Shown here: positions 9,035 to 21,997 of the stretch, piece by piece
How positions within the stretch are numbered: position 1 is the stretch's first letter
Layout: every line of letters starts with the position of its first letter
DNA from: a virus
Virus record (IMG/VR): IMGVR_UViG_3300020396_000040
Span: 1-21,997 of that record
Reading direction: 5' to 3' (one strand)
DNA: 21,997 nt
The notes under the pieces: generated by a model
The model's database searches: none
Seen by the model: only the letters and a program-made list of their open reading frames with translations
Told to the model about the DNA's origin: nothing
Program-made: the position numbers and the translations under genes

Positions 9035-9634
9035 TTATTCTTCTAGCATTATTTTTGAATTAGGATTGTCTTGATACGAATAATAAAATTCGTGGTTCTT
9101 GTATATTTCATTTATTAACTCGTCGAACATTTCTATTTCTACTGACAATTCATTTTCATTGTTTTGCAACTCTTCTATTTTAAATATAAAATTTTCATAA
9201 AAAAACTGTGGATTGCAATTTTCTTTTTTGTGAATTTTCTTATAGAAGTTTCTAAGCATTTCTACTTTATTAGCAATTTCTTTTTTCTTGTCTTTAAGCT
9301 TCATCATCATTTTGTTTAACTCTCCGATAACATCGCTTAATGTTTGAAATTGTGATTCAGTAATAACATTTACTATCAGTCCTTCAAAAACAGATTTAAA
9401 ATATTCTATTTTTATCTTTTCAGTAATCTCTGTAGTACTTCCAGTAATATCATAAGTTTGTCTACGCTTAGAATTAGACAACACATTATAAGCTTCTTTA
9501 ATAGCCTTAAATTCTTTTTCTTTACCTTTTATTAAGTCAGGGTGATTGAGTTTAACTAGCCGTTTATAGGCTAGTTTAATCTCTTTATCAGTAGCTTTTT
9601 TATCTACTTCTAATAATTCATATAAGTCTTTCAT
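9035..9634 (-). CDS. J-domain (DnaJ-like) co-chaperone protein
   Basis: Residues 2-63 form a J domain: DLYELLEVDKKATDKEIKLA in helices I-II, the invariant HPD at 31-33 and FKAIKEAYNVLSNSKRRQ in helix III. J domains stimulate the ATPase of Hsp70/DnaK, so the protein should recruit the host DnaK. No Gly/Phe region, zinc fingers or client-binding C-terminal domain follow; instead residues about 80-190 are helical and probably coiled-coil (ELNKMMMKLKDKKKEIANK), likely a phage-specific target-binding part. It is the last gene of the minus block, and its ATG shares one base with the YopX-family stop. The HPD is intact, so activity is expected; the client is unknown. Confidence 0.88.
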   Translation of the reverse strand: MKDLYELLEVDKKATDKEIKLAYKRLVKLNHPDLIKGKEKEFKAIKEAYNVLSNSKRRQTYDITGSTTEITEKIKIEYFKSVFEGLIVNVITESQFQTLSDVIGELNKMMMKLKDKKKEIANKVEMLRNFYKKIHKKENCNPQFFYENFIFKIEELQNNENELSVEIEMFDELINEIYKNHEFYYSYQDNPNSKIMLEE

Positions 9635-13998: not shown

Positions 13999-14685
13999 CT
14001 ATAAATAATTATCAATACTAGGTAACTCTTCATTTGTCTCAAAATACTTTTCACAACGTTCTTGAAATAAGTTTAAATCGTTTGGAATGTACTCAGGTGC
14101 TAAACCTAAAGGTGTCTTAGCTGAAACTGTACTGTATTTAGAATTTTTGTTTGTTAAAAATACATACTTAAACTCTGAATCTTGTTCTTCAACAGTTGAG
14201 TACAATACATTTACAAACTCTTTTTCAATAGACTTTTTCCATCTATTACCTTGTACTACAGCATATCTTTCAGATATACCTTCAGCACTTTCAATAACTT
14301 GGTCAATAGAAATCATAGCAACATACTTATCTAAAGAAGATTTTGACTTCTTAAATACTTCAGATAAAGTTTGATTGTATAAATTCCATTTGTCAAAACC
14401 ACCTCCCGTTACACGTTCAGCGTGTTCATCAATCATTTCTATCAAAGACGTTAATGACTCAACTACTATATGAGTTATTTTATCGCTTTTTAAAGCCTTT
14501 TCAAAAGCTTTGTCAAACTGTGGATAGTTATGTATCGCAAAGTTCATTTTAAAATCTTTACCTTCTCTAAACGGCAACGTTTTTCTCTCTGTATTAAAGA
14601 TAATTGTTGTGTCTTTGGGTAAATTTCTGATACTAGAAGATTTTCCTGTACCAGATGGTCCTAGAATTAGCGTGTTTGGCTTCAT
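13999..14685 (-). CDS. Sak4-like RecA-fold ATPase (AAA_24)
   Basis: A 228-residue P-loop ATPase. Walker A is GPSGTGKSS (9-17) very near the N-terminus; a strand with acidic end THIVVESL (71-78) serves as Walker B, with Glu76 as the acidic residue; the C-terminal half holds YVFLTNKNSK and ends ELPSIDNYL. Length, early P-loop and the phage setting fit the Sak4 group of single-strand annealing/RecA-core proteins, which act with SSB in phage recombination. Neighbours agree: SSB-like, NinB-like and RecE-like genes follow. ATG is 1 base after the stop of the upstream 80-residue gene. Confidence 0.82.
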   Translation of the reverse strand: MKPNTLILGPSGTGKSSSIRNLPKDTTIIFNTERKTLPFREGKDFKMNFAIHNYPQFDKAFEKALKSDKITHIVVESLTSLIEMIDEHAERVTGGGFDKWNLYNQTLSEVFKKSKSSLDKYVAMISIDQVIESAEGISERYAVVQGNRWKKSIEKEFVNVLYSTVEEQDSEFKYVFLTNKNSKYSTVSAKTPLGLAPEYIPNDLNLFQERCEKYFETNEELPSIDNYL

Positions 14686-14965: not shown

Positions 14966-15145
14966 TTAGTTCTCTTTTTTTTTCAAAAACATGAAATAAC
15001 CTTTGAAATTTATTTCACGTTTTTGTTTTAATAATTTTCTTACAGAGTTCCAAAAAGCTTTGATTATTATCGTTACTATAACTGCTTTAAGTTTAGTGTT
15101 TTTGCACACTAATTGCTGAATTTGCCAATATTTGGATTTTTGCAT
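14966..15145 (-). CDS. candidate 59-residue basic peptide overlapping the dnaB 3' end
   Basis: An ORF found by hand in the dnaB/14929 gap: MQKSKYWQIQQLVCKNTKLK, then a hydrophobic stretch AVIVTIIIKAFW and a basic tail (RKLLKQKREINFKGYF), ending KKKEN. It fills 127 bases of otherwise empty sequence and overlaps dnaB by 53 bases in another frame. The hydrophobic 8-12 residues are short for a membrane helix, so surface membrane binding is more likely. It competes with the view that this region is a structured leader: a 16-base-pair inverted repeat lies inside it. Moderate support only. Confidence 0.42.
   Translation of the reverse strand: MQKSKYWQIQQLVCKNTKLKAVIVTIIIKAFWNSVRKLLKQKREINFKGYFMFLKKKEN
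14984..15025 (-). repeat. 16-base-pair inverted repeat upstream of the Sak4 operon
   Basis: Arms 14984-14999 and 15010-15025 pair over 16 positions around a 10-base loop. The single plus-strand A/C mismatch becomes G-U in minus-strand RNA. On the minus strand it is followed by nine A, not T, so it is not a usual terminator. It could be a regulatory hairpin, an origin structure or chance within the 59-codon ORF. Confidence 0.6.
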
Positions 15146-16493
15146 TTTCTTTAAAATCGCTTATGAATTTAACATACTTACTAACGTAGTTTGCATAAAC
15201 AGTTCCAACGCCAGTACTTCTACCCTTTGCAATAATAATCTCAACATCAGTTTCTAACTCAGGTATTCCTCTTTCTTGCATTTCATAATAAGCAGGTCTA
15301 TATGGAAATATAACCATGTCTGCGTCTTGTTCTATTGCACCCGACTCACGTAAATCTGAAAGCATAGGTCTTTTGTTTGGTCTAGCATTAACTTGTCGAT
15401 TTAACTGACTTAACGCTATAACTACAATCTTTAACTCTGCTGCAACTTCTTTCAACGACCTAGATATAGAAGCAATTTCTTGCTCTCTGTTACCAGATTT
15501 AGACTTAAATGATATTAACTGCAAGTAATCTATAATAACTAGCTTAGAACCATGTCTAATGACTTGTTTTCTAATCTGATTAATAATTTTACCTAGTTTT
15601 CTTGAAGTATCATCTATAAAATAATTTCTAGATTTAAACGTATTTACGGTTTTTTGTACTTGACCTTTATCAATACTATCTAAAGATTTATCTCTAAACT
15701 TATACATTTCAATACAACTATATGAACTAATTAATCTCTTAGTTAATTCTAAATCTGTCATTTCTAAACTAAAGAAAAGAGGATTAACGTTGTCAAACAT
15801 GATGTTGTTTTTAAATATCTCTAATGCAAATGCTGTTTTACCCATTGAAGGTGCGCCAGCTATAATTATTAGATTATTTAAATCAAACTGATAAATAAAT
15901 GAATCTAAACAAGGTATGCCACTTCTGACTCCTAGTGAAACTTCACTTTCTAAATCATTAATAAAATTAATCATAGATTTCTCTACGTTAAAATCTTCAA
16001 CTTCTGCTAATTCTTGAATATCTAATAGACTTTTATGTATAGATTGTATAATTTCTATACCGTCTTGACTATCATTACACATTTCGCTAATATTTCTCGA
16101 TAATGAGAATAATTCTCGTCTTTGTGTATAACCATTCAATATTTTAACATGATCTTTTATGTTTTTATCAGTATCAGCTTTATCACATATCATTTCTAAA
16201 TAACTAATAAGATTGATTTCGCTTTTTACATTTGATAAAATGACATATTTTTTTCTAATTAGCATATCTGTAACAGTAGTAATATCTATTTTAGATACTT
16301 TACTTAAATCAGATATAGCAGCATAGATTAATCTTGTTTCAGTAGTTGAAAAGTCTTTCACAGAAACACTATCAGATAATAAATAGTAAGTATCTCCGTA
16401 ATTAATAAAAGTGCCTAAAACAGCTTCTTCTATCTCTACATTCGTTTGCCCAATAAAATTCGGTAAGTTGTCAAAACTTAACTGTTCTCCCAT
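15093..16493 (-). CDS. dnaB: DnaB-family replicative helicase
   Basis: The frame opens at 16523, but ATG at 16493 (MGEQLSFDNLPN) is preferred because it lies after the leader stem-loop and begins just before the conserved DnaB N-terminal domain (NVEIEEAVLGTFI). That gives 466 residues, the usual size. The RecA-type motor shows Walker A GAPSMGKT (213-220), Walker B LVIIDYLQL (318-326), NREQEI (335-340), ALSQLNR (360-366) and the arginine-finger block DLRESGAIEQDADMV (380-394). It should unwind the phage fork as a hexamer. The N-terminal domain suggests use of a DnaG-type primase, but no primase or polymerase gene is in the window. The PRTRC module ends 200 bases upstream. Confidence 0.95.
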   Translation of the reverse strand: MGEQLSFDNLPNFIGQTNVEIEEAVLGTFINYGDTYYLLSDSVSVKDFSTTETRLIYAAISDLSKVSKIDITTVTDMLIRKKYVILSNVKSEINLISYLEMICDKADTDKNIKDHVKILNGYTQRRELFSLSRNISEMCNDSQDGIEIIQSIHKSLLDIQELAEVEDFNVEKSMINFINDLESEVSLGVRSGIPCLDSFIYQFDLNNLIIIAGAPSMGKTAFALEIFKNNIMFDNVNPLFFSLEMTDLELTKRLISSYSCIEMYKFRDKSLDSIDKGQVQKTVNTFKSRNYFIDDTSRKLGKIINQIRKQVIRHGSKLVIIDYLQLISFKSKSGNREQEIASISRSLKEVAAELKIVVIALSQLNRQVNARPNKRPMLSDLRESGAIEQDADMVIFPYRPAYYEMQERGIPELETDVEIIIAKGRSTGVGTVYANYVSKYVKFISDFKENAKIQILANSAISVQKH

Positions 16494-16523
16494 AATAAAT
16501 AATGAATTAAATAACCAAGCCAC

Positions 16524-16557: not shown

Positions 16558-16703
16558 ATGTCTTTACAATTACTTTCAACTGATTTTGAATTTTTCTCAC
16601 AGTTTTTAATTTTTACAATTGATACAACTGATATTCCTATAGTTGTTATTGCTATTGTAAAAAGTAGTAGAAATAAATTTCTTCTAAATTTAATCAATTC
16701 CAT
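16539..16703 (-). CDS. 54-residue single-helix membrane peptide after ThiF
   Basis: An ORF found by hand: MELIKFRRNL, then the membrane helix FLLLFTIAITTIGISVVSIV (11-30) and a polar tail with two Cys (KNCEKNSKSVESNCKDIK). The positive-inside rule (KFRR before the helix) places the tail outside. Its ATG lies within the end of the ThiF gene and overlaps the ThiF stop by 10 bases (ATGGAATTGA), the coupled layout of this operon, and it fills most of the 200-base gap before dnaB. Size and shape fit a small Rz1-like or toxin-like peptide, but nothing fixes a role. It may belong to the conjugation module by position. Confidence 0.6.
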   Translation of the reverse strand: MELIKFRRNLFLLLFTIAITTIGISVVSIVKIKNCEKNSKSVESNCKDIKETEH

Positions 16704-17440
16704 TGAATACTTTTTGAAGATAATGTTTCTAATGAAACATAAATACCTTTGTAAATCATTTGTTCTTTTGTTAATAGCTCGTCTAAAAGATTAAGTCCAT
16801 GACTAGCAAGTAAAGGATTCATAAACAACTTTTGTTTTGATATAGCTTCTGCTATAGAGCAACTAGGTTCATTTAAATCTTCTTTAGTTTTTAAATAATC
16901 TTTAGGAAAACCATAACTAGCTGTTTCTGTTTTAACATTTTTTCCAGGAACGTAACTAACATATACTTGTCCATAATCATAACTGTTACCAAAATCAACA
17001 ATATAAACACCTTCTCCGTAATTTATATCTTGTCCTTTTATTTTATGAGAAACATAGTTGTAAACTTGTTTTCTTACTTTCATGTTATCAGGACACAATA
17101 TAATTACTTGTGTTTCTTTGATTTTTTTAACATCATATTCATCTTCATAAGCATTCCAATCAAAGCCATAATTTCTGTTAATATTACTAACAATAGTTTT
17201 AGCTTTACTTTCTCCTATTTCATCGTCGTTATATAGTTGTCTTACTGTGTTAGACTCACTTATAACGTCAGGGTCATAAACATTTACATTTATGCCTTGA
17301 CTATTCATTACAACTTCATTATGTACTAAATTTAGTTTTGCTAAACCTTGTAAAACATAAGAACCTGTACCTCCAACGCCTATTAAGTCTATCTTAATAG
17401 GCGATAAAGGATTAGAGAGAAACCTTTTTGTTAAGTGCAT
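16694..17440 (-). CDS. PRTRC-type ThiF (E1-like) activating enzyme
   Basis: A 248-residue E1-like enzyme expected to adenylate the C-terminus of the ubiquitin-like protein C and pass it on as a thioester. Visible marks: nucleotide loop IDLIGVGGTGS (17-27), VYDPD with Asp56 and Asp58, NTVRQ (64-68, Asn and Arg that touch ATP), Lys79 in GESKAK and ILCPDN with Asp118. PSCSIAEAISKQ at 192-203 has Cys194, the probable catalytic Cys, in a context I associate with PRTRC ThiF proteins. The following FMNPLLASHGLNLLDELL helix is also family-typical. It overlaps the B gene by 29 bases. No zinc-binding Cys pairs of canonical ThiF/MoeB are seen, as expected for this group. Confidence 0.93.
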   Translation of the reverse strand: MHLTKRFLSNPLSPIKIDLIGVGGTGSYVLQGLAKLNLVHNEVVMNSQGINVNVYDPDVISESNTVRQLYNDDEIGESKAKTIVSNINRNYGFDWNAYEDEYDVKKIKETQVIILCPDNMKVRKQVYNYVSHKIKGQDINYGEGVYIVDFGNSYDYGQVYVSYVPGKNVKTETASYGFPKDYLKTKEDLNEPSCSIAEAISKQKLFMNPLLASHGLNLLDELLTKEQMIYKGIYVSLETLSSKSIQWN

Positions 17441-18116
17441 TTAATACGTTTTTAATTTTTTTACCACTATCAATATGATTTTGACTTTGTTCTTTTTCAG
17501 TCATTTCATAAAATAAGTTTGTATCAAATTGTAAACCTGACTGCAAATGATTGTTGAAATTAGAGTTCCAAAATAAATCATGAAGATTAGTTTTAAGCAT
17601 TCTTAAACTTTTAAAAACATAATCTCTTCCTTTTAAAGAATTTCCCCAACATATTTTACCATCGTCATAAACATTAGGAGTAGCTAATCTATAAAGTTTA
17701 GTTTCTAAATGTCTAAATTTCTTATAAGCATAAACATAAACTTCATTACCGTCATATACCCAAAAAGTACTAGGACAATAATAAATTTCATTTTTAGTAC
17801 CCATAGAAATTATTCTTTTACTAGGTTTGTCTGTCCACGCTATTAAAGTGTTTTCAGGAGAATTATCTAGCCAAAAAAATGTATTAGGCTTACAGTCTAC
17901 ATTAATTGCAATGTTTGTACCTTTTTCAACAACTAAATCTTTTAAGAAATTAATTGTTTTTATGCTAGCAGGCTTACCTACTAGCATTTTACCATTTTTA
18001 TCTATATCTCTTACTTCTACATAATCATTACCTTCATTATTATTATAAAAAATCATTGTTTTTTTAGGTAATAAATTTTGTATTGGTTTAAATACAGCGT
18101 TTTCTAAATCTGCCAT
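17412..18116 (-). CDS. PRTRC system protein B, E2-like (UBC-fold) protein
   Basis: A 234-residue protein of the PRTRC B family, which Iyer, Burroughs and Aravind placed among prokaryotic E2-like (UBC-fold) proteins. The beta-meander runs through NTLIAWTDKPSKRIISM, YYCPSTFWVYDGNEVYVYAY and LYRLATPNVYDDGKICWGN (142-160). Cys156 in DGKICWGN sits where the E2 active Cys is expected after the conserved NVxxDGxxCxGN stretch. The tail is helical (MTEKEQSQNHIDSG...). It overlaps F by 13 bases and ThiF by 29 bases, so stoichiometric expression is likely. It should accept the ubiquitin-like protein from ThiF; its substrate is unknown. Confidence 0.87.
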   Translation of the reverse strand: MADLENAVFKPIQNLLPKKTMIFYNNNEGNDYVEVRDIDKNGKMLVGKPASIKTINFLKDLVVEKGTNIAINVDCKPNTFFWLDNSPENTLIAWTDKPSKRIISMGTKNEIYYCPSTFWVYDGNEVYVYAYKKFRHLETKLYRLATPNVYDDGKICWGNSLKGRDYVFKSLRMLKTNLHDLFWNSNFNNHLQSGLQFDTNLFYEMTEKEQSQNHIDSGKKIKNVLNALNKKVSL

Positions 18117-19114
18117 AAGTAATCTATTAATTTTTTAATGTATTGAACTGTTTTAAATTGTTTTGTAGTATTTACAATTCCATCTAAAGAGTACTCTTTT
18201 TTATAAATTAGTCTTTCAAATTCATAGTTATTCCAGTAGTCGTTTAAATGATGCTCATACTCTTTAAAAATCTCATCATCTTTAGGTAAAAGACACATAT
18301 AATTTTGAAAAGGAATAATTTCTTCGTTTTCAATATCTTCTATTTTTGTAACTAAATCAGAGAATTTAAAATCATTACAACTATAACTGTTGTAATGATT
18401 AATCATTTTTAACATGATTTTTGCTTGAGGACAATGATTAGGATTTTCCATTATGTAATCGTAATGCCAATCATTATTCCCTTTAACAAATTCATTTATA
18501 CACTGCTGTAATTTTTTATCATATTCTGCAATGTAATCAGATTCATTTATTTCTAAATCTAAATCTTCATTTTCATCACTAAGACAGTATTCTAAAGTCA
18601 TACGAAAAGTAACATTAGTATTAATAGTTGGATAGTCATACTTAATAACTAAACTTCCAATTACATACCTTATTATCTTTTTAAGATTTTCGTCTTCTAC
18701 ATTATCAATACAATCAAAAGTAAAACAATTGCCAACCTCTGGTTCCTCATGATATAAAATAATTGATTTACCGTCAAAAGTTATATTGTCATAATTGAAA
18801 TATTCTTTTTCTGATTTTAATAAATCATTTAAATTAGAGTTTAAAAAGTTGATTAACTGTTCTTGGTTAAAATTTGAAATACATTTTAAGTCTATATCAG
18901 TATATTTGTGTAACACACTTAATAAAGACAATAGAAGATTCTCAATTTTATCAATTCTAAATTTGTCTAATACAGAAATTACAGGGTAAAACGTGAGGTT
19001 CCTTTCGGAACCTTTATACGTTTTTCTTCTTTTGACTCGTTTAGGATTCTTGAGCACATTTTTGTATGTAACGCATTGTCCAACATAACGCATCTTTTCT
19101 TTTCTTTTTTGCAT
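18104..19114 (-). CDS. PRTRC system protein F (probable)
   Basis: A 336-residue acidic, helical protein in the slot where PRTRC operons carry protein F, between C and B, and with the right length (about 330-370). Conserved-looking start of the folded part: ERNLTFYPVISVLDKFRIDK (38 onward). The interior is rich in Asp, Glu and Asn (SDENEDLDLEINESDYIAEY). The call rests on order and size more than on motifs. The N-terminal 37 residues are very basic and overlap the 67-codon ORF out of frame by 136 bases; ATG at 19093 (MRYVGQC) is an alternative start. Role in the conjugation system is unknown; an adaptor is possible. Confidence 0.65.
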   Translation of the reverse strand: MQKRKEKMRYVGQCVTYKNVLKNPKRVKRRKTYKGSERNLTFYPVISVLDKFRIDKIENLLLSLLSVLHKYTDIDLKCISNFNQEQLINFLNSNLNDLLKSEKEYFNYDNITFDGKSIILYHEEPEVGNCFTFDCIDNVEDENLKKIIRYVIGSLVIKYDYPTINTNVTFRMTLEYCLSDENEDLDLEINESDYIAEYDKKLQQCINEFVKGNNDWHYDYIMENPNHCPQAKIMLKMINHYNSYSCNDFKFSDLVTKIEDIENEEIIPFQNYMCLLPKDDEIFKEYEHHLNDYWNNYEFERLIYKKEYSLDGIVNTTKQFKTVQYIKKLIDYLWQI

Positions 19115-19182
19115 ATCTCTAATACTTTTTCAACTACCCTTTTAGGTAATGATTCGTAAACCTTGTTAATTAAACTTTTCAT
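18979..19182 (-). CDS. 67-residue basic ORF between PRTRC C and F
   Basis: Its ATG overlaps the stop of gene C as ATGA, the classic coupled start. The first 35 residues are amphipathic and helical (MKSLINKVYESLPKRVVEKV, LEICKKEKKR), and the tail is basic (EEKRIKVPKGTSRFTL). Two thirds of it overlaps the start of F in another frame. Either both frames are used, or one start is wrong. The shared bases fold into an AGGTTCC-GAAA-GGAACCT hairpin with a GNRA-type loop. No canonical frameshift heptamer was found that would join it to F. Confidence 0.5.
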   Translation of the reverse strand: MKSLINKVYESLPKRVVEKVLEICKKEKKRCVMLDNALHTKMCSRILNESKEEKRIKVPKGTSRFTL

Positions 19183-19385
19183 CCTTTTGTTCCTATTTTA
19201 GTTTCAAACGTATATTCAATTTTGTTGTTCACTACGTTAGGTTCAGATAAATGAGAGTTTACTAACTCTGGATAAGAGTTTGCATAAAAATCCAAAACTT
19301 GTTTTAAAGTAAAGTTTTGATTAGGATCTGAAAGCATAAGTTCTTTGAACTTAAATACTCTTTCTAGTCTTTCTGTTTTAGCCAT
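19179..19385 (-). CDS. PRTRC system protein C, ubiquitin-like
   Basis: A 68-residue protein of the PRTRC C family (the beta-grasp group known as Prok_Ub). Family marks: RVFKFKELMLSDPNQNFTLK (9-28), VLDFYANSYPELVNSHLSEP (30-49, with the YPEL block) and a C-terminus ending YTFETKIGTKG. The terminal Gly is exposed with no extra residues after it, so no processing would be needed before activation by the ThiF protein. It overlaps E by 8 bases and the next ORF by 4 (ATGA). It is the likely modifier that gets attached to target proteins or other acceptors, though conjugation by PRTRC has not, to my knowledge, been shown. Confidence 0.88.
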   Translation of the reverse strand: MAKTERLERVFKFKELMLSDPNQNFTLKQVLDFYANSYPELVNSHLSEPNVVNNKIEYTFETKIGTKG

Positions 19386-19986
19386 TAAAATTAATTTTTT
19401 TGTATCTATCTTCCATCATTGATTCAATTTGCTCAGGAGTTAATTGTTTAGATTCAATAACTTTAGGCTCTGCTGGTGCTGTGTAAGCTTGTTCTTGAAA
19501 TAAACCAACACTTTTGTTGTTGTCATCAAGTTTTTGCTTACAAGACTTAGCTAAGGAGCTTTCTGAGTCAATCTTTAAAGCTTCATCAATTAACTTTTGT
19601 GCTTCTTTAAAAGATTTTTCTTCAATTAGTTTATCAATACCTTCTAATTTCTTTTTCACTTTTTCGTTAAGAGTTTTTTGTTTTTTCTTCTTCTCTTCTG
19701 CCATTTTTGACTCTGCTTTCATCTTTTCTGCCGAATTGATAAAATCATTCATGTTGGTTGTTACTTGTGAAATTTTAGGTAATTGATTTTCTAAAGATTT
19801 ACTTAACTCTTCTAATACACTTTGAACATCTGTACCTGTAACAATAAACGGTACAATTAACTTCGCACTTTCGTCTGAAGTTTTTGGCTTTGGCAATACT
19901 GAAACAGTAAATTCATCGCCAATTTTCTTGAATGCTACAACAACATCAATGTTGTCTAGCTTTTCTAAAATTTGTGTAAATATCAT
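19378..19986 (-). CDS. PRTRC system protein E
   Basis: A 202-residue protein at the head of the module. The N-terminal domain shows the PRTRC E pattern: MIFTQILEKLDNIDVVVAFK, DEFTVSVLPKPK and VPFIVTGTDVQSVLEEL (45-61, family form PLxLTGTPxELD). Residues 90-112 are Lys/Glu-rich; 116-154 form a TPR-like helix pair (IDKLIEEKSFKEAQKLIDEA); the C-terminus has a short helix LTPEQIESMMEDRYKKI. ATG comes 11 bases after the leader stem-loop D. The molecular role of E is not known; as the first cistron with its own structured leader it may set the level of the module. Confidence 0.85.
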   Translation of the reverse strand: MIFTQILEKLDNIDVVVAFKKIGDEFTVSVLPKPKTSDESAKLIVPFIVTGTDVQSVLEELSKSLENQLPKISQVTTNMNDFINSAEKMKAESKMAEEKKKKQKTLNEKVKKKLEGIDKLIEEKSFKEAQKLIDEALKIDSESSLAKSCKQKLDDNNKSVGLFQEQAYTAPAEPKVIESKQLTPEQIESMMEDRYKKINFNG

Positions 19987-19997
19987 AGTTTTAAATT

Positions 19998-20048
19998 TTA
20001 ATTATCAAGCCACAATGGGATATACCCACTGTAGCTTTTGATAATTAA
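19998..20048 (-). promoter_or_regulatory. leader stem-loop, element D (before PRTRC E)
   Basis: Outer arms TTAATTATCAA and TTGATAATTAA pair perfectly (11 pairs); an inner GC pair, then CAGTGGG and CCCATTG (7 pairs with one G-U) around TATAT. The plus strand would have an A/C mismatch at that G-U, so the fold belongs to minus-strand RNA. It includes the stop of the DUF932 gene. Tail AATTTAAAACT leads to ATG at 19986. Confidence 0.7.
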
Positions 20049-20941
20049 GCGTAAACTAATTTAGAAATTTCACTAAATGCTTTGTTGTCTAATTTTTGAC
20101 CTGAACCAATCATTTTACTTTCCATTAAATCTTTATTTCCAGGTAAATCTCTATTAGTATAAGAGGTTACTCCTGAAAATAATCCCCATAAAGTTTGACC
20201 TTTTTGAGAAGATTCTTCAGCAATACGAAGAGTTAAATTCTTTGCTTTGTTTATAGAATTTGTAGAATACTTTTCTCTCGCTTCTTCGCTAGTCATTTCT
20301 ACATCAACACCTACTAAGCTTTTGATTAAGCGCTTAATATCGTTAGGTTTAGATTCTATATCATTCATTCTTGTAAAGGTTTCGTAAAGGCTTAATTCTG
20401 ACTCTTTAAAGTCATCAATACCAAACATAATAGTGTCTATTTTTTCACGCATAGTTTTAGTATGTCTTACTTTATGAGCTAAATCTCTATAAGCTTTATG
20501 AAAAATATTACTACAGCTAATAGTTTTGTTAGTCATTCCTAATCCTACTCCTGAACTACCATCATGACTATTTGTTATAGTTATGTATTTATCAATTTGA
20601 TCGTTGTTAAGACCAATATTCTTGATAGAGCCGCTATCAATTTGCATAAATACTTTACGACCATCTTGTAAAGCACCTCCTTTTACAATATCTCCACCTA
20701 ATTTTGTGGCAATTTCGTGAGTTAATTCTGCTAAATCCCAATTCTGAAATATTTCATAACTGTCTTTACAAGTCATAAACTCTTTGTCAATATCTGACCT
20801 ACGAATAGATAAATAATTTGATTCAATCCCTTCTCTAGTGAAAAGATTTTCTTTTTTGACTTCCCAAAAAAGATTGTGTTGTTCTAACAAGTCCATTACC
20901 ATTTGTCCTTTGTTTTCAACTTCGTTAATTTGATTTTCCAT
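20045..20941 (-). CDS. DUF932 phage/plasmid-like protein
   Basis: A 298-residue protein of the DUF932 group (TIGR03299-like, phage and plasmid proteins of unknown function). Marks: LFWEVKKENLFT (24-35), NYLSIRRSDIDKEF (42-55), YEIFQNWDLAELTHEI, KLGGDIVKGGALQDGRKVF (80-98), DKYITITNSHDGSSGVGLG (116-134) and ISCSNIFHKAYRDLAHKVRH. Such proteins are common near early genes and on plasmids. Its stop is within the outer helix of leader element D, and the PRTRC E gene follows, so expression of the two may be linked. Start is ATG at 20941, 20 bases after leader element C. Confidence 0.88.
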   Translation of the reverse strand: MENQINEVENKGQMVMDLLEQHNLFWEVKKENLFTREGIESNYLSIRRSDIDKEFMTCKDSYEIFQNWDLAELTHEIATKLGGDIVKGGALQDGRKVFMQIDSGSIKNIGLNNDQIDKYITITNSHDGSSGVGLGMTNKTISCSNIFHKAYRDLAHKVRHTKTMREKIDTIMFGIDDFKESELSLYETFTRMNDIESKPNDIKRLIKSLVGVDVEMTSEEAREKYSTNSINKAKNLTLRIAEESSQKGQTLWGLFSGVTSYTNRDLPGNKDLMESKMIGSGQKLDNKAFSEISKLVYA

Positions 20942-21437: not shown

Positions 21438-21997
21438 TTAAAATATATATCTGATTTTATTCCATTTAATAATGCTATCATGAAGTTTTATAAACGATTG
21501 AATATAATCACGTTTTAAATTGTGTTCATATCTAATGTTTGTACCTCCATAGCTAGAAACTTTGCTTTCTTGGTTTTCTGGTGTCCATAACAAACTTTCT
21601 CCTTTTTTGTCGTTTGTAACATTTTTATAATGTTTTTTTTCGTTGTGAGTTAAAAAGATTACTTCGCATTTTACTTGGTCTTTGTAATCAATATAATCAT
21701 TACAAAGTTGAAATAAATACTTATAGTCTTTTAACCAATCAGGATAAACAACAACAGGACTAAAGTTTAAATGAACATCATATCCTGCATCAATAAAAGC
21801 GTTTACAGCTTTTATTCTATCAATAATTTTAGGTGTGCCTGGCTCAAGATAATCTGAAATCTTTTGAGGCATTAAGCTAAATCTAATTCTTACTTTACCA
21901 TTTGGGTTATAATTAATAAATTCAATAGGTATAATTTTAGTGGCTAGAGTAGCCATAGCTATAGGATGATTTTTAAAGAAATCAAAAATCTTTTCCC
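21438..21997 (-). CDS. spore photoproduct lyase-like radical SAM protein, N-terminus cut
   Basis: The frame continues to the right edge (upstream residues read EKIFDFFKNHPIA), so the ATG at 21956 is internal and only the C-terminal 186 or so residues are visible. The pattern NHPIAMATLATKI, RIRFSLMPQKISDYLEPGTP and RIKAVNAFIDAGYDVHLNFSPVVVYPDW matches the SplB family (VRFSLNPxEIxxxxEPGTP, then AxxxxxAGYxVGFHFDP). SplB reverses the thymine spore photoproduct with a 4Fe-4S cluster and SAM. The CxxxCxxC cluster motif would lie outside the window and must be checked. In SplB the radical path uses a conserved Cys and Tyr; Cys in KCEVIFLTH is visible. Phage relatives may act on other DNA bases. Confidence 0.8.
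   Translation of the reverse strand, partial: EKIFDFFKNHPIAMATLATKIIPIEFINYNPNGKVRIRFSLMPQKISDYLEPGTPKIIDRIKAVNAFIDAGYDVHLNFSPVVVYPDWLKDYKYLFQLCNDYIDYKDQVKCEVIFLTHNEKKHYKNVTNDKKGESLLWTPENQESKVSSYGGTNIRYEHNLKRDYIQSFIKLHDSIIKWNKIRYIF

Follow-up and report, generated by a model that had tools for sequence, protein, structure and literature searches.

A viral DNA stretch of 21,997 nucleotides (positions 1 to 21,997 of the IMG/VR record IMGVR_UViG_3300020396_000040, hereafter the window) contains an overlapping operon encoding the PRTRC proteins E, C, F, and B together with ThiF, i.e. a predicted ubiquitin-like (Ubl) modifier (C) with E2-like (B) and E1-like (ThiF) partners. PRTRC has been annotated since 2006, yet is a functionally dark bacterial E1/E2/Ubl system. 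The explanation which we favour, and to which we assign about an even chance, is that the operon is an intact, reduced cascade of PRTRC operon type 6d, without a JAB protease, which tags replisome proteins from within the replication region of a phage. Gene content and order, conserved residues, selection, conservation within the phage lineage, and linkage to replisome genes were observed; the chemistry, the targets, and the benefit to the phage we infer. A preliminary description of the window had read a single overlapping E-C-F-B-ThiF operon, and its coordinates and motifs were borne out (Table 1). All five genes stood, but a small gene at 18979-19182 between C and F had been overlooked. Furthermore, the set is of PRTRC type without being canonical: the canonical set is defined by the NCBI models TIGR03734-03742, with six major proteins including ParB and ThiF, and both ParB and JAB (protein A) are lacking here, absences on which that description did not remark.

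Profile searches, which had been proposed as a check, gave scores above the PRTRC cut-offs for ThiF and C, scores below the NCBI PRTRC cut-offs for B and E, and no match for F. ThiF reached 168.6 bits with the PRTRC ThiF equivalog TIGR03736 (cut-off 144.75). Its predicted catalytic residue Cys194, already proposed for an E1-like enzyme, was invariant in 190 homologues, as were the GxGGTG motif and the residues Gly21, Gly23, Gly24, Gly26, Asp56, Asp58, Asn64, Arg67, Lys79, and Asp118. In a profile search of the PDB, ThiF matched an adenylation domain of human UBA6; a scan of genome contigs with the window ThiF as single query gave no match. The ubiquitin-like nature of C was equally upheld. C exceeded the cut-offs of Prok_Ub (80.6 bits, cut-off 25) and TIGR03738 (67.7 bits, cut-off 45.95), holds one single Prok_Ub domain according to the Pfam scan, and ends exactly in GTKG, while the PDB profile search with C returned no match. 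Gly65, Lys67, and Gly68 were invariant in alignment A1, and the terminal glycine was kept in 175 of 176 loci, corresponding in tailed forms to the glycine before the tail.

The E2-like assignment of B with Cys156 held with respect to Prok-E2_D (52.9 bits, cut-off 25) and to the cysteine itself, which was invariant among 82-86 diverse homologues, but not with respect to the PRTRC B equivalog TIGR03737 (41 bits, below the cut-off of 131.45). His190 was present in at least 90% of these homologues, and a histidine downstream of the cysteine has been described for type 6d E2 proteins (PMC1779556). Similarly, E matched PF19556 (55.5 bits, cut-off 26) and stayed below the cut-off of TIGR03741 (32.2 bits, cut-off 37.95). 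For F, no match was found in NCBIfam at E values up to 1, nor in any of the library models; an iterative profile search joined it to the F proteins of Bacteroidota plasmids and integrative and conjugative elements (ICEs). Its identification as a homologue of the proteobacterial F was dropped, the profile-profile comparison (hhalign) yielding a probability of 10% only. F is a rapidly diverging, mostly helical protein (pLDDT 72, the predicted local distance difference test score of the AlphaFold2 (AF2) model).

The conserved residues suggest the following course of reaction. ThiF would adenylate the mature C-terminal Gly68 of C and then hold C as a thioester on Cys194, from where C would be handed to Cys156 of B, with His190 providing the usual E2 histidine function. 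Steered by E, the small protein, and F, B would join C to lysines of DNA-replication proteins. Candidate targets are the DnaB-centred replisome of the phage, or the host clamp and polymerase recruited by the phage, and such tagging would favour phage replication. With C mature from the outset, processing by a JAB protease would be superfluous; without JAB, the mark may last through the short infection, or something else may remove it.

Indeed, neither PRTRC A (TIGR03735) nor Prok-JAB was matched in the parent phage (G001) or in G002 and G007, while the Burkholderia phage BgVeeders33 was positive. Among the loci surveyed, 147 had no A and a C ending at the glycine, 45 combined A with a tail of 57-100 aa after GTKG on C (for example L003, L039, L060, L069, and L072), three had A without a tail, and none had a tail without A. 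Removal of duplicate contigs left 130, 42, and 2 loci, respectively, the last two being L089 and L105. JAB was confined to loci with a tailed C or to that clade; in all other loci, C ends in glycine and JAB is absent. On the tree, this distribution amounts to one split and two tail losses, which rules out treating the locus counts as independent cases. That tail-bearing precursors occur together with a protease, which we liken to the maturation of BilA by BilC (PMC11354881), is a coherent pattern in the sequences and not a statistical demonstration. Iyer, Burroughs and Aravind (2006) state that every one of their sets had JAB either as a fusion or as a neighbour (PMC1779556); given the JAB-less order E-C-F-B-ThiF on Bacteroidota plasmids and in the sampled loci of Bacteroidota, this rule fails for the Bacteroidota branch.

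The choice of replisome proteins as favoured targets follows from the recurrent linkage to replication genes across element kinds. DnaB and Sak4, named beforehand as neighbours of the module, both lie downstream of it on the same strand. DnaB was located at most 400 bp from the module in 14 phage loci, and Sak4 at a distance of 1.9-5.4 kb in 16 phage loci. The clamp gene dnaN abuts the operon or sits inside it in 21 loci, about 19 of them distinct once contigs present in two collections were removed (among them L049, L054, L059, L063, L065, L070, L071, L074, L075, L077, L080, L086, L093, L097, L106, L109, L111, L122). The usual order is DnaN-E-C-F-B-ThiF with dnaN directly 5' of E; in L054, it lies between C and B. 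All five PRTRC-linked clamps examined with Pfam were beta clamps. As these clamps are only ~25% identical to one another, the linkage is either old or recurrent; the DnaN label requires nine changes on the tree, gains or losses alike being possible. Additionally, topB was found ~1 kb from PRTRC in about 37 loci (Bacteroidales, chromosomal), DUF932 in 20 loci, and ssb in 15-16 loci, with DUF932 and ssb both nearby in Flavobacteria and relatives; among chromosomal loci of Bacteroidota, DUF932 was near PRTRC in 15. Only families identified by sequence were counted in this neighbour analysis, as clustering was swamped by shadow open reading frames (ORFs). Early regions and mobile elements often contain replication genes, so each linkage is weak by itself, and it is the recurrence across element kinds that carries weight. 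Of the three roles considered initially (against the host, against rival phages, or on the phage's own replication proteins), the neighbourhoods with DnaB, DnaN, TopB, SSB, and DUF932 best support the last.

A phage lineage with the module next to DnaB, together with dnaN-headed relatives, points to a specific and testable class of targets, the replisome, and the reduced phage set with its mature Ubl and without JAB is a small version suited to reconstitution. If the explanation is correct, bacterial Ubl tagging would serve DNA replication as well, beyond phage defence. A more far-reaching conjecture, which we consider rather unlikely, is that PRTRC-type cascades are a prokaryotic counterpart of PCNA and replisome ubiquitination: the cascades of phages, plasmids, and ICEs would couple C to DnaN or DnaB and thereby steer the replisome to replication or repair of the element, and in JAB-less sets the mark would be lasting.

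The module is carried by a genuine phage, as judged from the terminase, portal, and major capsid genes (strong matches to PHROG 6681, 6547, and 11589) on its closed parent contig, and the phage nature of the stretch was thereby confirmed. Over its full length, the window shares 99.96% identity with positions 38445-60440 of this 69,355-base IMG/VR contig (G001), the ends of which repeat (~153 bases), indicating a closed genome of ~69.2 kb. The nearest named relatives of the three structural proteins belong to crAss-like and Flavobacterium Fpv phages with 24-29% identity. On this basis, the phage appears to be distantly related to gut crAss-like phages; its host is probably a member of Bacteroidota.

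Close versions of the module occur on seven IMG/VR contigs (C 82-100%, ThiF 84-100% identical). Four further contigs (L056, L061, L117, and L162) encode terminases 62-65% identical to that of the window's phage and retain E, C, B, and ThiF, the ThiF being only about a third identical to the window ThiF. Wherever these four contigs extend far enough, the module-DnaB-Sak4 order was retained as well. The operon has thus long belonged to the replication region. On L083, a contig of 102 kb whose terminase is more distant (25%), E, C, B, and ThiF were likewise found. No more than two changes account for the 18 phage-lineage rows of the ThiF tree, several of which are short contigs placed by DnaB/Sak4 order without a terminase, and a single origin is possible. 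Among the phage relatives, mean pairwise ratios of nonsynonymous to synonymous substitution rates (dN/dS) were 0.10 for C, 0.15 for E, 0.16 for ThiF, 0.18 for DUF932, and 0.30 for B, with reference values of 0.08 for DnaB and 0.09 for Sak4. F (0.41) and the small gene (0.43) showed higher values, which are not independent because of their shared overlap. Invariant catalytic positions and purifying selection indicate that the gene set is maintained. That the genes are mere passengers without effect on the phage would fit the fast divergence of F and the small gene, but is very improbable in view of the purifying selection on C, E, ThiF, and B, and of their retention across deep phage divergence.

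Several results weigh against the tagging of replisome proteins and call for care. The AF2 model of B (pLDDT 85) matched no E2 or other PDB fold at E < 0.01, and the profile search of B against PDB chains gave no match. Rad6 and TSG101-UEV appeared as fold matches of B at E values of about 1 only and were dropped as support. The AF2 model of F retrieved no PDB fold below E 0.4, and no function could be recognised for F. Neither this phage nor BgVeeders33 has dnaN. Clustering of replication genes is a feature of every phage early region, and linkage within phages is therefore weak alone. The survey was seeded from window sequences and took the best matches first, hence its counts are not population frequencies. 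Finally, a single tree split with two tail losses underlies the whole association of JAB with the tail.

With the E2 fold of B unconfirmed by the fold search, and with ThiF resembling MoeB/ThiF in the Pfam and NCBIfam scans, a chemistry without protein conjugation has to be considered, in which C would be a sulfur carrier or a ligand for another product, ThiF an adenylyltransferase, and B a degenerate E2-like partner. We give this little credence: in 82 diverse B sequences, Cys156 is invariant and His190, corresponding to the histidine of type 6d (PMC1779556), nearly so; the identified neighbours are replication genes, none being for sulfur transfer or cofactor synthesis; and the tailed sister group has a JAB partner.

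The preliminary description had also pointed to a likeness with the Bil system and with Cap2/Cap3 of the cyclic-oligonucleotide-based antiphage signaling system (CBASS). Cap2 of CBASS is an E1-E2 fusion. The likeness holds for the E1/E2/Ubl logic, which the set shares with both systems, and is weakened by their differences. Compared with Cap2/Cap3, B and ThiF are unfused, and neither JAB nor a cyclase was found; Bil (BilABCD) has a two-domain Ubl and a JAB protein (PMC11354881), as opposed to the single Ubl domain and the missing JAB here. PADLOC gave weak E1-E2 matches to ThiF only (best 1.3e-5) and none for B, C, or F. It is conceivable, though in our judgement unlikely, that the cascade is a weapon or shield directed either at rival phages, whose structural or replication proteins would be tagged, or at host defence proteins, much as Bil acts on phage tail parts. 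The use of the same logic by Bil and CBASS (PMC11354881), the occurrence of the module on mobile elements, and the fast evolution of F and the small protein, as conflict predicts, would agree with such a role. The weak PADLOC result, adjoining genes that belong to replication and not to defence, and a module kept throughout the lineage, not patchily, in the members sampled, argue otherwise. Moreover, deletion of a 'Bil-like' system, not stated to be PRTRC, in a Bacteroides thetaiotaomicron strain left hankyphage assembly unchanged (PMC12135933).

The distribution on plasmids and ICEs, where most PRTRC sets are found, and the ParB-related part of the PRTRC name suggest another role, in replicon maintenance or partition, the phage persisting extrachromosomally. 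No integrase was found in the parent genome, as in a plasmid-like or lytic phage. We consider this role improbable, however, as PRTRC ParB (TIGR03734) was not matched in G001, G002, G008, or G015, and no ParB is annotated near the PRTRC sets of Bacteroidota plasmids. The search for PRTRC D gave no match in the phage, and its controls gave none either.

For the favoured cascade, the closest known system is PRTRC operon type 6d (PMC1779556), with which the window shares the order E, C, F, B, ThiF, a stand-alone Ubl with a C-terminal glycine ending in G-x-K-G, an E2 with cysteine and downstream histidine, a stand-alone E1-like ThiF, and a rapidly diverging helical protein. It differs from canonical PRTRC not only by the missing A and ParB, the low scores of B and E, and an F unrecognised by the models, but also by its location in a phage replication region. 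JAB-less sets of Bacteroidota plasmids and ICEs (Parabacteroides NZ_OY725769, Tunicatimonas NZ_CP120684) have the same five genes in the same order and a glycine-ended C, with ThiF only ~30-37% identical; the JAB-less chromosomal sets of Bacteroidota adjoin topB, ssb, or conjugation genes, whereas the phage set adjoins DnaB and Sak4. On the Tunicatimonas plasmid, umuD and a Y-family polymerase gene, a link to DNA repair, lie ~5 kb downstream of the PRTRC ThiF (L038:12975-14573). A further PRTRC set of Bacteroidota is annotated around BT2645-BT2649 in Bacteroides thetaiotaomicron VPI-5482 (PMC10434189).

That PRTRC sets are known mainly from plasmids and integrating elements, as stated initially, is correct, yet other phages carry them as well. 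The isolated, Mu-like phage BgVeeders33 (OK665841) has a full E-C-small-F-B-A-ThiF set, which is not annotated as PRTRC. It shares the phage-borne E-C-small-F-B-ThiF genes with the window and differs by its JAB protein A, a C extended by 62 aa beyond GTKG, an integrase, and a Pseudomonadota host. ThiF relatives are encoded in 170 IMG/VR stretches, some of them ICEs or prophages. In the open-access literature, to which the search was confined, no paper was found on PRTRC in phages or on PRTRC biochemistry or function. The PRTRC family and the existence of phages carrying it in public records are already known. As far as could be checked, the durable retention of a JAB-less module in a crAss-related phage lineage, the relation between mature Ubl and missing JAB, the dnaN-headed operons, and the small gene are new.

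A ThiF-like gene in the replication region also occurs in the crAss-like phages crAss001 (gp76/gp77, L004:4250-6648) and DAC15 (gp88/gp89, L002:4596-6705). There, ThiF is fused to a different N-terminal region of 107-160 aa, the neighbour is weakly JAB-like (below cut-off), and the scans made showed neither Prok_Ub nor Prok-E2_D in the region. This E1-like and JAB-like pair is possibly a separate Ubl-type system of Steigviridae, judging from the sequences.

The module genes and their neighbours are summarized in Table 1. From 19986 to 16694 on the minus strand, the order is E, C, small gene, F, B, ThiF. Adjoining genes overlap by 8 nt (E/C), 4 nt (C/small gene, ATGA), 13 nt (F/B), and 29 nt (B/ThiF), a pattern as in a translationally coupled operon.

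Table 1. Genes of the PRTRC module and neighbouring genes in the window.
Feature	Position	Strand	Basis
PRTRC protein E, 202 aa, first gene of module	19378..19986	-	PF19556 match
PRTRC protein C, ubiquitin-like modifier, 68 aa, ends ...GTKG	19179..19385	-	Prok_Ub and TIGR03738
Small conserved protein, 67 aa	18979..19182	-	Matches no family library; codon-position pattern
PRTRC protein F position, 336 aa as longest ORF	18104..19114	-	Position and iterative profile search
PRTRC protein B, E2-like, 234 aa, predicted catalytic Cys156 and His190	17412..18116	-	Prok-E2_D
PRTRC ThiF, E1-like, 248 aa, predicted catalytic Cys194	16694..17440	-	TIGR03736
DnaB replicative helicase, next main gene downstream of ThiF	15093..16523	-	PF03796, 263.9 bits
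Sak4-like recombination protein	13999..14685	-	phrog_2872, E 1.1e-24
DUF932 protein, 298 aa, directly 5' of E	20045..20941	-	PF06067, 78.1 bits
SPL-family radical SAM gene, 3' part, cut by window end	21438..21997	-	TIGR03886, 195 bits (fragment)

The small gene and the longest ORF of F have 136 nt in common, i.e. about the first 45 codons of F. Within this overlap, the fractions of variable sites at the three codon positions were 0.36/0.25/0.44 when read in the small frame, compared with 0.44/0.36/0.25 for that of F. This pattern marks the small frame as the constrained one, and ruled out that the ORF 18979-19182 is a chance frame within F. The true start of F is uncertain in consequence and may lie downstream of that of the longest ORF. 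A short ORF, mostly of 41-67 aa, was located right after C in about 158 of 176 PRTRC loci. It occurs in the forms of phages and Bacteroidota as well as in the proteobacterial one (BgVeeders33), and patterns such as LP(P/S)...(P)LP or ...LF recur at its C-terminus. A profile built from the short ORFs of chromosomal loci recovered only part of them; their likeness is thus one of position and C-terminal pattern.

Elsewhere in the parent phage, the structural region contains an ORF of 3360 aa (G001 23618-33700; L024:3618-13700), the scanned part of which gave no PHROG match. A 425-aa protein (L026:3567-4844) matched phrog_8203 and showed a weak likeness to SprT towards the C-terminal end. A DnaJ-domain protein is encoded at 9035-9634 of the window in the same early cluster as the module, and its homologues were found near PRTRC in 14 viral loci. 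The spore photoproduct lyase-like (SPL) gene at the window end is an ORF of 286 aa in the parent contig (continuing in L026:1-741). Approximately the first 65 model positions are missing from this ORF, and the radical S-adenosylmethionine (SAM) motif CLLDCTYC (CxxxCxxC) is present.

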